From Lachnospiraceae bacterium (GTDB lineage Bacteria > Bacillota > Clostridia > Lachnospirales > Lachnospiraceae), in NCBI GenBank assembly GCA_017936785.1, contig JAGBEV010000064.1:1-45795 (forward strand): a DNA stretch of 45,795 bases. The letters run 5' to 3'. Made by a program: the position numbers and the translations under genes. The notes beneath the pieces were generated by a model. That model worked only from the letters and a program-made list of their open reading frames with translations, ran no database searches and was not told the DNA's origin. Shown here one piece after another: positions 3,598 to 30,368 of this stretch (positions are counted from its first letter, which is position 1; every line of letters begins with the position of its first letter).

Positions 3598-3707
3598 ACC
3601 GATATAATGAATAGGGTTTAAGCATTTATACTTTTTGATCAGTACAAGGATGGAAAAAAGCTAAGGACAGCATACTTTTTAAAAGAAGGTATTCTGTCCT
3701 TTTTATT
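3598..3707 (+). terminator. Rho-independent terminator with a promoter-like sequence just upstream
   Basis: The arms AAGGACAG (3663-3670) and CTGTCCTT (3694-3701) pair, with an inner ATAC/GTAT extension, followed by TTTTATT. This would end transcription of the lipoprotein gene. Upstream, ACCGATATAAT (3598-3608) contains both a TATAAT and a sigma-28-like ACCGATAT, so a short transcript of roughly 100 bases ending at this hairpin is possible. Confidence 0.6.
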
Positions 3708-3818
3708 AAATTTATTTAATTATATGTAGTCATGTGTAAATATGACATTCCTGATGTGTTGAAATTGATCAATGGGAACAGTTGTTCAGAAAGAGGATTC
3801 AGAAAGGGGAAATTGATT

Positions 3819-4313
3819 ATGAGTATAGAAGGTATTGGAAATTACAGTTACATAGGCAGTTATGCCGGAAATTCCAACAGAAAAGATAAGGCAGAGTCAG
3901 ATAAGGGATTCGTGTTGGAAGGTTATGAAAGTGCTGATCAGGTGCAGAATGAAAATACAGACAAGATCCCGGAGAAATATGCAGGCATGTCTTTCTGGGA
4001 ATTGATCAGCAGTGAAGGGGCAAAGAACCGGATTCCGGTAGTGAATGCTGTTGTAACGGCTAAGAATCCGGAAGATGAGAAAATTTATGTGACATTTTTT
4101 ACTGACCGGAAAATCTTTTGTCAAAATGCAGATGGTTCCAAAGTATGGGAAATGGGACTGGAAAATCAGCAGCAGAGAGATAAAGTTCAGAAATTTTTCA
4201 GCAATTATAAACCGGATCGTGATCTGGTAAAGGAATACTATTCGGATGCAGGTTTGGGAATTGTTTCTTCAAGAGATTTTTGGATAGCATTGTTAGAGGA
4301 CGATGCAGAGTAA
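3819..4313 (+). CDS. Conserved-looking orphan protein, function unknown
   Basis: With the start at 3819 the product has 164 residues; AAAGGGGA (3803-3810) sits eight bases before this ATG, so an upstream in-frame ATG at 3732 is unlikely. The N-terminus (MSIEGIGNYSY...) is Gly/Ser/Tyr-rich and probably flexible. The C-terminal half is a compact alpha/beta-like region containing KIYVTFFTDRKIFCQ and a conserved-looking NYKPDRDLVKEYY. There is no signal peptide. In style it resembles the orphan proteins at 26962-30207: soluble, with a short flexible Gly/Ser/Asn/Tyr-rich N-terminus followed by a compact acidic domain. No function can be given. Confidence 0.65.
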   Translation: MSIEGIGNYSYIGSYAGNSNRKDKAESDKGFVLEGYESADQVQNENTDKIPEKYAGMSFWELISSEGAKNRIPVVNAVVTAKNPEDEKIYVTFFTDRKIFCQNADGSKVWEMGLENQQQRDKVQKFFSNYKPDRDLVKEYYSDAGLGIVSSRDFWIALLEDDAE

Positions 4314-23028: not shown

Positions 23029-23125
23029 TATGGGCAGCTTGGAAAATCATAGCGGCAACTTAAGAGGAGTGGTATTGTGAATAAAAGCGCCTTTTGCTAT
23101 ATTGAAACAGAAAGGAAGTGGAAAC

Positions 23126-23566
23126 TTGAAAATTACCATTCATTCCGATGAAAACCTGCAGGAAACAGAAATAAATATCCATTGCGGGAAGCTTACTCCG
23201 GAAATCGAAAGGATCATCTCTATGATAAGAATGCTGGAGATGAAGCTGACCGGTATTTCTGAAGGAGAAATCTGCTTTTTGGACCCTGCACAGGTTTTTT
23301 ATATTGATACGACAGATAAAAAGACATTTATTTACACAAAAGCAAAGGTTTATGAAACCAATTTGAAATTGTATGAGCTGGAAGAACAGTTTTCCGATGT
23401 GGGATTCTTTCGCGGAGGAAAGTCCTGCATTATCAATTTAAGACATATCCGGTCTCTTAAGGCAGATCTGGACCGGAGAATACGGGTAACCCTGGACAAT
23501 GGAGAACAGCTGATAGTATCCAGGCAGTACGCAGAAGCTTTGAAAGAAAGATTGGGGGTTAAATAA
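23126..23566 (+). CDS. LytTR DNA-binding domain protein (no receiver domain)
   Basis: The 146-residue protein ends in a LytTR domain (about 50-146) with GEICFLDPAQVFYIDTTDKK, FFRGGKSCIINLRHI and an RQYAEALKERL end. It has no phosphoacceptor domain, only a short N-terminal segment (MKITIHSDENLQETEI). The start is taken at the TTG at 23126, because AAAGGA lies nine bases before it and the resulting N-terminus matches this small LytTR family; a TTG at 23102 is less likely. It is followed immediately by a DUF3021 membrane protein. In known pairs the membrane protein inhibits the LytTR regulator. Confidence 0.88.
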   Translation: MKITIHSDENLQETEINIHCGKLTPEIERIISMIRMLEMKLTGISEGEICFLDPAQVFYIDTTDKKTFIYTKAKVYETNLKLYELEEQFSDVGFFRGGKSCIINLRHIRSLKADLDRRIRVTLDNGEQLIVSRQYAEALKERLGVK

Positions 23567-24052
23567 ATGGAAGAGAAGAAAACCATATTCGATTATTTGG
23601 GTCAGGTTTTTTGTGTATTCGGAATCGCAATGACCATCATGGCAGTGTTCTGTCTGTTGTTTGGAGAGGAATCCAAAGAAATTTCCACCATGTTTGCCTT
23701 GGGTAACAAAGGTCTGTCTGTTGAGACTATGGGGCAGTTCTTAGGGGTGACCGCTTTCATTGTGGGATTGCGTTTTTTGTTTTTTACTGATGTGCTGATC
23801 AAAACCATGTCGATTTTCATGAGAACGTTATTGATGTTAATAAGTGTGGTGGCTGTCATAGGCGTGTTTGTTTATTGCTTCGGATGGTTTCCTGTAGATA
23901 TGTGGCAGGCATGGCTTATGTTCCTTGTATGCTTTGGAATCAGTTTTGCGGTAAGCCTTCTGGTTATGTCATGGAAGGAAAAACTGGAAAACCGCAAAAT
24001 GGAAGAAGGATTGAAAAAGCTGAAAGATAAATTGGAGGACACCTGTGCCTGA
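23567..24052 (+). CDS. DUF3021 family membrane protein
   Basis: A 161-residue protein with four predicted membrane helices and a charged C-terminal coiled tail (KEKLENRKMEEGLKKLKDKL). Helix four, with QAWLMFLVCFGISF, is typical of DUF3021. The ATG immediately follows the LytTR stop codon, so translation should be coupled. In the LytTR regulatory system family the membrane partner binds and inhibits the transcription factor; this is known for the family, not shown here. Confidence 0.82.
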   Translation: MEEKKTIFDYLGQVFCVFGIAMTIMAVFCLLFGEESKEISTMFALGNKGLSVETMGQFLGVTAFIVGLRFLFFTDVLIKTMSIFMRTLLMLISVVAVIGVFVYCFGWFPVDMWQAWLMFLVCFGISFAVSLLVMSWKEKLENRKMEEGLKKLKDKLEDTCA

Positions 24053-26811: not shown

Positions 26812-26883
26812 TTAGAGAGGCTTACTTATCAGTTCCCTGACTATGTATTCATTACAAAAAAATTCCCAGTCGTTACATTTTGG

Positions 26884-26910
26884 AGAAGTCTGTCTTTTTT
26901 CTGCCGATAT
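26884..26910 (+). promoter_or_regulatory. Possible sigma-28 (SigD) promoter
   Basis: GCCGATAT (26903-26910) is a perfect sigma-28 -10 element. The corresponding -35 (AGAA at 26884-26887, 15 bp upstream) is a poor match to TAAA. The site lies about 50 bases before the orphan gene at 26962. Confidence 0.35.
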
Positions 26911-26961
26911 AAATTATGGAATAAGTTTACGGGTATTCTCAGGAAAAGGAGTGATTTTCAC

Positions 26962-27933
26962 ATGGTAGTTGCCGGAGTGACCAACACAAATGTAACAGGT
27001 ACAGAGGTACAAAACAATGCAGGTGTGCAAAAGGACATTGTATTGAAAACCTATTCTTATAAAGACGGAAAAGGTCAGGAAACCACATATCATACAAAGG
27101 ACATGGTAGAAATATCTATGGAGTCCTATACCATACCCATGGGATGTGAAACTTATGAAAAGCTGAAATACCAGATGAACAAGATGCCCTGCCTTCCTCA
27201 CAATAAAATGTTTTATGAAACCTATGATGTTATGAAGGACTTCTATGATGGTAAAATTTCCAAAGAAGAAGTGGAAAATATCTTTAAGGAATACTGTTAC
27301 CATGCTATAGGAGAGCCTTCTGAATCGGACGGGGTGTATAAGCAACAGCGTGCCACACAGGCACTATCGGAGCTATATGAGTTTTTCAGCAGAGCCAATA
27401 CAAGATGTGCCAATGATCTGAACACACAGGAAGCAAAAAAGCTGCTGGAAGGAAACGGTCTGGGATTTTCCAGGTCCATATATTATAATTCAGACTATTA
27501 TTACCGGTGTGAAGAGATGCAGGAGATGTTCAGGACAATTGCTGATGAACTGGCGGATACATATGGCGGAGAACATGTGGATTTTAAGTATGTGGAAGAA
27601 AATACCAAATTTACTCTGGACGGAGGCATCACATTTAACGGGGTATGGAATTACCGTGTCTGGGCATCAGATCATAAGGGATATGGAAGTGCCGGAAAGA
27701 TAAAAGATGTAAATGCAGTGCCGCCCAGAGGTTTCCTGTATTGCAGCATATCCGGATATGGAACGCTGGAAGGCAAAGCCTCAAAGATTAGGGCAGATTT
27801 GGAAAAAATGGATCAGGATAGAAATATCCGCAGGGAAGGCTCATATGAGAAAGCAGCAGGCTTTTTAAGCCAGTTTGATATCAGACATGAATATAGGGGA
27901 GACTATCTGGAATTTCTGCGTATGGCAGAGTAG
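26962..27933 (+). CDS. Orphan soluble protein of 323 residues
   Basis: No signal peptide or membrane segment is present. The first 25 residues are Asn/Thr/Val-rich and flexible; the rest looks globular, with helical stretches (YEKLKYQMNKMPCLPHNKMF, EEVENIFKEYCYHAIG) and a C-terminal beta-rich part around FNGVWNYRVWASD and PPRGFLYCSISGYG. I do not recognise a family. It has its own terminator and perhaps a sigma-28 type promoter. Nearby genes include an orphan LytTR regulator and a FliD C-terminal-like protein, so a shared process is possible. AAAAGGAGTG precedes the start. Confidence 0.7.
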   Translation: MVVAGVTNTNVTGTEVQNNAGVQKDIVLKTYSYKDGKGQETTYHTKDMVEISMESYTIPMGCETYEKLKYQMNKMPCLPHNKMFYETYDVMKDFYDGKISKEEVENIFKEYCYHAIGEPSESDGVYKQQRATQALSELYEFFSRANTRCANDLNTQEAKKLLEGNGLGFSRSIYYNSDYYYRCEEMQEMFRTIADELADTYGGEHVDFKYVEENTKFTLDGGITFNGVWNYRVWASDHKGYGSAGKIKDVNAVPPRGFLYCSISGYGTLEGKASKIRADLEKMDQDRNIRREGSYEKAAGFLSQFDIRHEYRGDYLEFLRMAE

Positions 27934-27948
27934 AAAAAATTCATTACA

Positions 27949-27987
27949 AAATCAAGTCGGTTGGTTACATCCGGCTTGATTTTTTTG
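27949..27987 (+). terminator. Rho-independent terminator
   Basis: AAATCAAGTCGG (27949-27960) pairs with CCGGCTTGATTT (27971-27982, one G-U), followed by a run of T. It separates the 323-residue orphan gene from the response regulator gene. Confidence 0.9.
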
Positions 27988-28025
27988 TGGTAAATGACGA
28001 AATAATAGCAACAGGGAGTGATAAA

Positions 28026-28736
28026 ATGACCATAGCGGTTTGTGATGATGATGAGAAGACCAGAAAGCATCTTGCAGGTCTGATTCGTTCATTTATAGAT
28101 AAGGATATAGAATCAGTTCAGATACTTGAGTTTTCCGGGGGAAAAGAGCTTTTGGAATATCAGGGGCAGTTGGACATTGTGATCATGGATATCGGAATGA
28201 ATGGTATGAATGGCATGGAGACTGCTGCCAGGCTTCGGAAAGTATCGGATACCATATTGATTTTTGTTACGGCATGGAAGGATTATGTTTTTGACGCATT
28301 TGATGTAGGTGCCTTTCATTACCTTCTGAAGCCCGTTGATGAAAATAAATTCTTTGAAGTTCTGGAGCGGGCACTGACAGAGATCCAAACCAGAAACGGC
28401 AAAAAAAGTGCCGGATTCACCGTTAAAACCTTAGAAGGATTTCGCACAGTCAAAATCAAGGATATTTATTATGCAGAAAATATTGCCAGAAAAATTGTAC
28501 TTCATACCGGACAGGGAGATATTGCCTATTATGAAAAGATGGATCATTTAGAGCAGCAGCTGGGAAACGGATTTTTCAGATGCCATCGTGGATATCTGGT
28601 GTCTCTGGACAAGATCAAGCAGTATGACAGAAGGGAAATAGAACTGGTAAACGGAGATAAGATCCTGTTATCCAGACAAAAATATTCCGACTTTGTCCAG
28701 GCATATATGAAATATATGGTGGAAGAAGATTTATGA
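28026..28736 (+). CDS. LytTR family response regulator (AgrA/LytR type), orphan
   Basis: The 236-residue protein has an N-terminal receiver domain with the acidic cluster D7-D8-D9, phosphoacceptor D55 (VIMDIGMNG), the conserved Thr in FVTAWKDY and the Lys in LLKPV; a LytTR DNA-binding domain follows (about 135-236; FRCHRGYLVSLDKI). AGGGAGTG directly before the ATG at 28026 selects this start over a GTG at 27987. No histidine kinase of the AgrC/LytS type is adjacent, so its signal source is elsewhere. It is co-directional with the two orphan genes downstream (36-base gap) and probably regulates or is co-expressed with them. Confidence 0.92.
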   Translation: MTIAVCDDDEKTRKHLAGLIRSFIDKDIESVQILEFSGGKELLEYQGQLDIVIMDIGMNGMNGMETAARLRKVSDTILIFVTAWKDYVFDAFDVGAFHYLLKPVDENKFFEVLERALTEIQTRNGKKSAGFTVKTLEGFRTVKIKDIYYAENIARKIVLHTGQGDIAYYEKMDHLEQQLGNGFFRCHRGYLVSLDKIKQYDRREIELVNGDKILLSRQKYSDFVQAYMKYMVEEDL

Positions 28737-28772
28737 ATTCAGATAGAAGACAGCAGAAAGGGAGGAAAAAAT

Positions 28773-29564
28773 ATGGACCCAGTGTATTTAAATGCCACTA
28801 CGAGAGCTTATGAAAAGTATTTACAGACCCTCCAGCCGGGACACACAAAAAATGTATCAAAAACACCTAAGGCACGGGGGCTGAAGGAAGGGTTTGACGA
28901 AAACAGATTTCGTTTCGGAGATTTCAGGACCAAACTCCATACAGCTTCAGGCAGTCAGGGGTCAGGCAGTACATCAAAGGTTCAAGGTACAGGAAAATCC
29001 GGAAAAACTGACGGAATGAATACCATACCGGATCTGACTCAGGTTTCCAGAGAGAATATGACCATGGATGAATACAAAGCCTATATCCGGGAAAAGATTT
29101 ACAGAATACCCATAAATCCTTCCCAAGCTCTCAATTCCGTAGCGGTCGATATAACGGAGGAAGGCTTTGAGGCAATGAAAAATGATCCTGAATATGAAGA
29201 GTGGGTGATGAGCGGACTTAGGGCGGATTTTGCATCCTATGATCCATGGAGCAGCCTGTGCGGAGGACATTATGTGGTGCATCATTTTGGGGCATCCAGA
29301 GAGGAATACCGGGGAGAGAGCTGGTATCCTGAATGCCAGGGAGGATCGGGTAAGAGCATGTTTGAATCCAGGGCAGAGAAAAGCTTCTGGGAGCGGCGTT
29401 CGGATTCCATACAGACATATCTTAAAGAACAGGAAATGCTCAGCCTGCACCAGCGGCGGCTGGACAGGATCAATGGCAATTTACCAAAAGGAACTTATCA
29501 AACAAATATTTTACAAACTTTAGGGAGGCTTTATTATGCGGGTTACTACTCAAATGTTAAATGA
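28773..29564 (+). CDS. Orphan soluble protein of 263 residues
   Basis: Residues 30-95 are a Gly/Ser/Thr/Lys-rich flexible linker. The C-terminal part (about 100-245) is globular and includes MTMDEYKAYIREKIYRIPIN, a DITEEGFEAMKNDPEYEEWV segment and YDPWSSLCGGHYVVHHFG. The EAMKNDPEYEEW pattern recalls a group of uncharacterised Lachnospiraceae proteins (DUF6033-like, weakly recognised). There is no signal peptide. Its last 29 bases overlap the next gene, suggesting coupled translation. GGGAGG lies upstream of the start. Confidence 0.68.
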   Translation: MDPVYLNATTRAYEKYLQTLQPGHTKNVSKTPKARGLKEGFDENRFRFGDFRTKLHTASGSQGSGSTSKVQGTGKSGKTDGMNTIPDLTQVSRENMTMDEYKAYIREKIYRIPINPSQALNSVAVDITEEGFEAMKNDPEYEEWVMSGLRADFASYDPWSSLCGGHYVVHHFGASREEYRGESWYPECQGGSGKSMFESRAEKSFWERRSDSIQTYLKEQEMLSLHQRRLDRINGNLPKGTYQTNILQTLGRLYYAGYYSNVK

Positions 29565-30207
29565 ATCTGCCAGAAAGGCAGGCTTGCCGATCCATGACAA
29601 ATCCCTGCTCAACTATATCAATCAGGGAAACAGCGGGAACAGCCTGATGGAGGCGGTTTCGGGAAATAACAGTCAAAACAGCGGCACCAGCAAAATCCAG
29701 AAGAACAGCTTTGAAAAAATGGAAAAGCTTGCAGGAGGATTATATCAAAAAGCATCATTGTTTCTTGCAAAGGAAAATACTGTTTTTGATAAAGCAAGGG
29801 AAACTGGCGATCATAAAGAAGTTCTTGATAACATCAGGGATATGGTTGAGGCTTATAATGATACAGTGGGTGCTTTGAGCAAAGAAACCGGTGCCATCAA
29901 CCGGCTTTATCTGGAATCTTTAAAGAGTGCTGCAACAGAAAATTCTTCTTTGTTAAAAAATGTAGGAATCACCGCTTCCAAAGATGGGAAACTGGTAATT
30001 GATGAAGAAAAATTTAAAAATGCCGATCTGGATGATCTGGAAAAAGCATTTGGTAAGTCAGGTACCTTTTCCTCAAAGACCGCTTTTGTGGCAGGCAGGA
30101 TAGAGGATAATGCCGCTGCAAATCTGGAGAGTATTTCCAATCAGTATACATCAGCAGGTAATACCTATACAGCTGCCTTGTTAAACAAATTTGATCATAA
30201 GGGCTAG
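29536..30207 (+). CDS. Orphan protein resembling the FliD C-terminal domain
   Basis: The 223-residue product has a Ser/Asn/Gly-rich N-terminal third (to about 55) and a helical region that reads like the FliD (flagellar hook-associated protein 2) C-terminal domain: DNIRDMVEAYNDTVGALS, then GITASKDGKLVIDEEKF and a DDLEKAFG end. Real FliD is usually over twice as long and carries an N-terminal domain, absent here. No flagellar gene is in the window. AGGGAGG (29522-29528) inside the preceding gene supports the start. A strong terminator follows. Possibly a secreted or filament-associated protein; the link to flagella is an inference from motif style. Confidence 0.65.
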   Translation: MRVTTQMLNESARKAGLPIHDKSLLNYINQGNSGNSLMEAVSGNNSQNSGTSKIQKNSFEKMEKLAGGLYQKASLFLAKENTVFDKARETGDHKEVLDNIRDMVEAYNDTVGALSKETGAINRLYLESLKSAATENSSLLKNVGITASKDGKLVIDEEKFKNADLDDLEKAFGKSGTFSSKTAFVAGRIEDNAAANLESISNQYTSAGNTYTAALLNKFDHKG

Positions 30208-30226
30208 TTGTACTACTTATATATAG

Positions 30227-30265
30227 AAAAAGCCGTAGAGATCCGTACTGGTTTCTACGGCTTTT
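30227..30265 (+). terminator. Rho-independent terminator
   Basis: AAAAAGCCGTAGA (30227-30239) pairs with TCTACGGCTTTT after a 13-base loop. It ends the regulator/orphan operon. Confidence 0.92.
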
Positions 30266-30368
30266 GTATTGGAAATGGCAATATAAGATTCCTTGTGTTA
30301 TACTGGTTTGTAACAGAAAATCCGGTAATCGGTAACTGACATTGGATAGATGAGAGCGAGGAAGAAAT

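Follow-up and report, generated by a model that had tools for sequence, protein, structure and literature searches.

Gene content of the locus

We examined a four-gene locus (positions 26,884 to 30,265) in a 45,795-nt stretch of DNA from a Lachnospiraceae bacterium, hereafter the window, which is contig JAGBEV010000064.1 (C46) of assembly GCA_017936785.1, a 3.4-Mb draft genome of 66 contigs for which contamination is given as 8.77%. All four genes lie on the forward strand and, as the initial annotation had it, are intact open reading frames (ORFs) in the order P1, RR, P3, P4. P1 (26962..27933) encodes a 323-residue soluble protein with the N-terminus MVVAGVTNTN, RR (28026..28736) a LytTR response regulator of the AgrA type, P3 (28773..29564) the core protein of a wider module described below, and P4 (29536..30207) a short FliD of 223 residues without cysteine. 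The claimed overlap of the last two genes amounts to 29 bp in the window, and they likewise overlap in two close relatives (G002 and G006). Neither P1 nor P3, both previously listed as unrecognised, matches a Pfam family over cut-off, and Pfam finds the REC (1.4e-17) and LytTR (2e-20) domains expected from the description of RR. Judged by hydropathy only, P1, P3 and P4 contain neither a signal peptide nor a membrane-spanning stretch, no mean over 19 residues reaching 0.5.

The strong terminators said to bound the units correspond to two intrinsic terminators on the forward strand, detected by a terminator scan and by folding. The first follows P1 (core stem and T run at 27950..27986, the scan reporting a shorter stem), where segment 27934-27992 folds at -21.6 kcal/mol (z -5.7). 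The second closes the operon (30229..30266), segment 30222-30270 folding at -22.7 kcal/mol (z -6.1).

RR had been described as an orphan, and there is indeed no kinase gene beside it. It looks orphan, however, because the locus lacks a kinase gene that relatives have. In G002 and G006 the gene order is [chemoreceptor (methyl-accepting chemotaxis protein) or P1]-RR-kinase-P3-P4, a GHKL sensor kinase of ~497 residues (GHKL domain E 1.4e-21 in G002) being encoded between RR and P3. In the window this place is the forward-strand junction 28734..28772, where the sequence passes cleanly, across 36 nt, from the stop codon of RR to the leader of P3. No kinase ortholog was found elsewhere in the source genome, the best of four matches reaching 26% identity over partial length. 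RR itself is 82% identical to its homologs in G002 and G006 and 66% identical to that of G004, where the order is [HD-GYP]-RR-500-aa ORF-P4. At another locus (L184) the order is RR-P4-P3, without a kinase in between.

A direct repeat ahead of both promoters

P1 and RR are both preceded by a direct repeat of the pattern KTSRTTACA-N12-KTSRTTACA, with an exact 21-bp period. Box 1 (TTCATTACA-N12-GTCGTTACA, 26848..26877, forward strand, no mismatch) lies upstream of P1 and ends 25 bp before the sigma-28-like -10 element GCCGATAT (26903..26910). Box 2 (TTCATTACA-N12-TTGGTTACA, 27940..27969, same strand) lies upstream of RR and ends 26 bp before the sigma-28-like -10 element GACGAAAT (27996..28003); it overlaps the P1 terminator, its second half standing in the terminator loop. 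A direct repeat of 21-bp period has the geometry that would be expected of a LytTR site, and we presume both boxes to be sites for RR. According to a passage of PMC8481266, the LytTR domain of AgrA contacts two consecutive major grooves, and the ComE dimer is described in part of PMC12482169 as fitting two direct repeats.

A perfect sigma-28 -10 element had been reported before P1. The element is present, as GCCGATAT carries the (M)CGATA core, from which GACGAAAT differs by one change, but taken alone it is not beyond chance (GCCGATAT occurs twice in the window for 1.2 expected, and 33 of 100 shuffles reach two). It gains weight because of its position 25 bp after the box and because a sigma-28 matrix, built from 11 promoters of flagellin and flaG genes in the genus, places the region upstream of P1 4th of 456; of the three regions scoring higher, two belong to the training set. 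For Butyrivibrio fibrisolvens, a passage of PMC3720852 quotes the sigma-28 consensus TAAA-N16-17-MCGATAa. Like sigma-28 (FliA/SigD) late flagellar promoters, the window promoters thus carry an MCGAWA -10 element; unlike them, they are without the TAAA -35, and the repeat ends where a -35 would begin.

The 21-bp period was first noticed in a side-by-side comparison of the regions upstream of 29 RR genes. At offset 21, 15 of 24 non-redundant RR promoters and 36 of 300 controls contain a 12-mer self-match of at least 9 (p 5.8e-8; the count was made after the repeat had been noticed and partly on the same sequences), whereas no other offset between 13 and 35 exceeds 4 of the 24. The box pattern was written from five sites that are not independent (P1 and RR in the window, RR in G002, RR and P1 in G006). 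When searched in nine whole genomes of the genus with up to one mismatch, it yielded 14 matches (8 of them perfect), against one for the reversed pattern. Eleven of these boxes precede P1, RR or P3-family genes or two further genes of G006 (encoding 329 and 221 residues), and the other three lie inside unrelated genes. Six of the eleven took no part in defining the pattern, four are on contigs other than that of the regulator, and one is ~14 kb from the regulator. The element NMCGAWAN follows after 25-27 bp at all eleven promoter boxes and at none of the three boxes inside genes (a 4-bp window, set after looking, gives a chance of about 0.003 at each site).

All eight perfect boxes are confined to the four genomes with a close P4 ortholog. 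Box 2 is nearly invariant in four genomes, where box 2 and GACGAAATAAT are kept while the bases between and beside them vary, and the RR -10 element and its spacing are likewise the same in four genomes. The source genome has only two boxes at up to one mismatch, both in the locus, and G006 has the same kind of box upstream of its P1. The repeat apparently ties both promoters of the locus, together with unlinked genes in relatives, into one regulon, which the initial annotation had overlooked.

Outside the genus, 11 of 22 non-redundant RR promoters carry a period-21 repeat suitably spaced ahead of NHCGAWAN. The same holds for 3 of 455 controls (p 3.7e-14) and for 5 of 73 promoters of late genes (p 0.002); with periods of 17-20 or 22-25, the same composite is found in 0-2 of the 22. 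The half-sites differ there, ATTCACGCT being one example. Several of the loci L141-L172 show a highly conserved ATTCACGCT-N12-ATTCACGCT and (T/A)CGATATA upstream of RR, before RR-kinase-P3 operons. The gene upstream of RR also swaps between species (P1, a chemoreceptor or HD-GYP), and the terminator-box-promoter arrangement stays (window, L057, L058 and L068).

Distribution of the module and its link to flagella

The locus had been pictured as standing without flagellar genes, as something kept or re-used. This could hold for the window at most and is untrue of the genome, which encodes flagellins and a normal FliD elsewhere. Three flagellin matches were found, with places seen on contigs C56 and C3, and FliD_C matches comprise a full FliD of 504 residues on C3 (beside genes which, by eye, we take to be FlaG, FliS, FliW and CsrA), P4 itself, a FliD-like protein of 455 residues (C11) and another short FliD (C61).

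Co-occurrence with flagellin genes and conservation of the neighbourhood had both been suggested as checks. Among 61 relatives scanned, FliD_C and flagellin were found in the same 45 genomes, and P3 in seven, all of which are flagellin-positive. Among 250 genomes of the family, P3 is present in 21 and flagellin in 129, and P3 goes with flagellin, which was found in 20 of the 21 genomes with P3 and in 109 of the 229 without it (Fisher p 9.5e-6). Flagellin was also found in all 42 genomes behind those named P3 loci that were given to the flagellin search (42 of 80, mostly near-duplicates being left out); at least four of these genomes overlap the earlier sets (L129, L134 and L130 are G002, G004 and G006, and L192 matches as G088).

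When the P3 alignment was used to scan named genomes, 166 places encoding P3 relatives were obtained, of which 80 were kept for neighbourhood comparison. By their titles, these loci are mostly from Lachnospiraceae, several bearing Oscillospiraceae-type names (L136, L139, L178, L194) and others only Clostridia, Eubacterium or Bacterium; one is from a metagenome-assembled genome named Alistipes. Another (L159) belongs to the isolate Petralouisia muris, a culturable relative that carries the module. Within 6-7 kb of P3 we counted a GHKL-type kinase in 48 loci, a LytTR regulator in 43, a DUF6033-group protein in 30 and a short FliD in 10, all of these counts being lower bounds as families were assigned by iterated profiles. 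In 29 loci a kinase gene and P3 come after RR, within three genes and in the same orientation. The neighbourhood is conserved, the module recurring across Lachnospiraceae and some Oscillospiraceae, and the locus is one copy of a widespread module rather than a unique arrangement. The suggestion of a flagellum-related module was right, and we found nothing in support of its alternative, a separate cell-surface filament module.

The encoded proteins

P4 had been thought to resemble only the C-terminal domain of FliD. The FliD-like character is confirmed, FliD_C being matched with 34.5 bits for a curated cut-off of 25.4 (E 1.8e-8), but structure prediction, proposed earlier as a check of the fold, indicates more than that domain. 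In the model, 143 residues (within 55-200 of P4) align to residues 43-411 of E. coli FliD, which leaves no room for the D2-D3 head; the C-terminal end of the model is disordered. P4 models best as the D1 (leg) domain of FliD without the D2-D3 head. With FliD (the filament cap, HAP2), it shares the FliD_C match, the predicted leg fold and the lack of cysteine; it differs in its length of 223 residues, in lacking the head and in standing outside the fliD-fliS cluster of a genome that also has a normal FliD. Other FliD-like genes were seen as well. The second short-FliD cluster, on C61 (L053 6342-9688), encodes a 191-residue protein, the short FliD, a Cys-free partner of 201 residues and a 389-residue protein, and the same cluster occurs in G002 and G004. 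The 455-residue protein on C11 (L055 17011-18378) stands beside a NeuA-like-looking gene, and FliD-like frames of similar length are present in many flagellated relatives.

P3 begins with about 20 conserved residues (consensus MxNxIxxNYMTRxYxNxxK), followed by a variable linker, an alpha/beta domain with DPEYE and FGA..E motifs and long C-terminal helices. Only around residues 91-200 is its structure predicted with confidence, and the model has no match among solved folds. The domain is distantly related to DUF6033 by profile-profile comparison (hhalign probability 94.2, E 1.2e-7 against DUF6033-group proteins), although the Pfam cut-off for DUF6033 is not reached: five of 38 P3 members match at E <= 1 (best 0.00086), and the window P3 is not among them. 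DUF6033 (PF19498) and DUF3879 (PF12995), neither of which is given a known function by its Pfam title, both stand in the same single run at L063, namely RR-kinase-P3'-DUF6033-DUF3879.

Relatives of P1 were found only in G006, G030 and L181 among the loci examined. The G006 homolog stands at the same place and is 56% identical, G030 has distant tandem copies, and L181 has one.

Short N-terminal leaders are found ahead of different bodies. A leader motif, written after seeing examples, is present in 9 of 153 unlabelled near neighbours and in 2 of 641 ORFs elsewhere (p 1.2e-5), and in 20 of the 25 members of the G030_178 group. Shared leaders of this kind suggest a common destination for otherwise unlike proteins. 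A leader of the same kind as in P3 neighbours elsewhere was seen in a small protein of the window (3819-4313, forward strand, within ORF 3732-4313, likely start MSIEGIGNYSYIGSYAGN); upstream of it, CCGATAT occurs at 3599, and no box of 21-bp period was found at up to three mismatches. On contig C56 (L056 2806-5826), the gene for a 1006-residue protein lies shortly before a flagellin gene and itself has GCCGAAAT upstream.

One further regulatory pair lies in the window at 23102-24052, where a LytTR protein without receiver domain is followed by a probable membrane protein of 161 residues; presumably, from its look, a LytTR regulatory system, it is kept near the locus in G002 and G006.

Proposed regulation and alternative explanations

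We consider, with a probability of roughly two in three, that the locus is a LytTR-regulated branch of the sigma-28 late-gene regulon, in which sites for RR precede sigma-28-type -10 elements and the products act with the flagellum. RR would bind the 21-bp-period repeat at two places, upstream of P1 and of its own gene, each site ending 25-26 bp before an MCGAWA element that lacks a good -35. As the repeat ends at the place where a -35 should start, contact activation of a sigma-28 promoter is the most economical reading, bound RR most likely substituting for the missing -35 and recruiting sigma-28 polymerase. P1 and the RR-P3-P4 operon would then be expressed only if two conditions coincide, an active flagellar sigma factor and RR in its on state, and RR would be self-reinforcing because it controls its own gene. 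In relatives, the GHKL kinase encoded between RR and P3 would supply the input; in the source species, where the kinase appears to have been lost with both sites intact, RR may work through another kinase, through a small phosphodonor or unphosphorylated. Since the second half of box 2 lies in the loop of the P1 terminator, RR bound there might also alter read-through from P1 into RR, which is speculation. P4 would most likely be exported to the filament tip or to the hook-filament junction, P3 and P1 acting with it inside or outside the cell.

The regulatory part recalls AgrA/AgrC- and ComE-type two-component systems, with which it shares a REC-LytTR regulator, a GHKL kinase adjoining it in relatives, a direct-repeat site near the promoter and apparent self-control; positive self-control is stated for other LytTR regulators in a passage of PMC12482169. 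It differs from them in that the sites stand ahead of sigma-28-type -10 elements, in that P3 follows the kinase in relatives (the kinase itself missing in the window), and in that no peptide-signal gene was noticed near the module, no systematic search having been made.

Several observations weigh against this interpretation. The pairing of regulator and box is deduced from their co-occurrence, the offset and composite tests share sequences with the set in which the repeat was discovered, their settings were chosen afterwards, and half of the outside-genus RR promoters (11 of 22) fail the composite test. A TAAA -35 at 15-17 bp is absent (P1 has AGAA or GAAG), and the sigma-28 matrix gives a low score to the P1 promoter of G006, which has only the box and TACGATAA at 27 bp in its favour. 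ORFs with leader-type N-termini show no excess of high sigma-28 scores (3 of 94 against 42 of 1,438, p 0.53). P1 contains six cysteines and the P3 family, with 1.1% cysteine, is not depleted; even among flagellin-labelled ORFs, only 30% of 10 are Cys-free. The P4 of G006 falls just below the FliD_C cut-off (25.1 against 25.4 bits), one P3-positive genome of the 21 (G190, by a partial match) is without flagellin, and the contamination figure applies to the very genome that carries the locus.

The alternative that survives best, and which we regard as a real possibility if not the probable one, is that P1, P3 and P4 stay in the cytoplasm, where they would regulate or chaperone flagellar assembly (P3 being, for example, a partner of the kinase or a chaperone of P4). 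The cysteine contents of the P1 (1.6%) and P3 families are near that of unlabelled ORFs (1.7%), and P3, whose gene overlaps that of P4, ends in long helices and is encoded close to a kinase in many loci, all of which would suit such a role. On the other hand, the short-FliD family is largely Cys-free (24 of 30, against 19 of 360 length-matched ORFs), as are FliD-labelled ORFs (94% of 31), and the neighbour families share the short N-terminal leader, although that motif is post hoc.

Promoters recognised by sigma-A appear unlikely to explain the architecture. Under this explanation the box would still be a site for RR, but the -10 elements would be degenerate sigma-A ones, the CGA core would be shared for another reason, and the flagellar link would mean only that the bacteria are motile. 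The absent -35 fits, since AgrA/ComE-type promoters with a poor -35 usually use sigma-A, and TATAA follows CGA directly at some sites (GCCGATATAAA at 26903). Yet the element common to the sites, at near-fixed spacing, is MCGAWA and not TANNNT (GACGAAAT, GCCGATAG, TCCGATAT, TACGATAA), and it resembles both the B. fibrisolvens MCGATAa, as given in that part of PMC3720852, and the promoters of flagellin and flaG genes in the genus.

Two further explanations concern the missing kinase. That the whole locus is decaying, the remainder following the kinase, is improbable: only a 36-nt junction is left of that gene, but none of the four ORFs is broken, P3 and P4 still overlap, both boxes match perfectly and box 2 with its -10 element is conserved. 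An assembly error, conceivable in a single draft of 66 contigs with the contamination figure given above, is more improbable still, as the window contains no N, the RR stop runs cleanly into the P3 leader, no ortholog lies elsewhere in the genome, and L184 likewise has no kinase between its genes.

Implications

The individual parts of the locus are of known kinds, and we found no account of their combination in the open-licence literature searched, in keeping with the suggestion of an undescribed system. A wider possibility, which we consider rather doubtful, extends the LytTR-regulated sigma-28 branch to a regulon for secretion via the flagellum in flagellated Lachnospiraceae and Oscillospiraceae. 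A LytTR two-component system would there act as a second lock on sigma-28 promoters, diverse small proteins with short N-terminal leaders but different bodies (M-x-[IV]-x-G-[IV]-x..Y, the P3 consensus, or MR[VI]TTQMLN in P4) would be exported through the flagellar channel, acting at the filament tip or on neighbours or the host, and headless FliD proteins would serve as tip adaptors.

The flagellar sigma factor normally needs no activator, and the locus would allow a direct test of whether a response regulator can act on it. Natural headless FliD leg domains would help to dissect the function of the cap. According to part of PMC3720852, host cells are stimulated by flagellins from gut species of Eubacterium and Roseburia. 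The late regulon of these bacteria seems little charted beyond structural genes, and the computable signature described here (a 21-bp-period repeat, then 25-27 bp, then MCGAWA) may provide a handle on hidden flagellum-associated genes.

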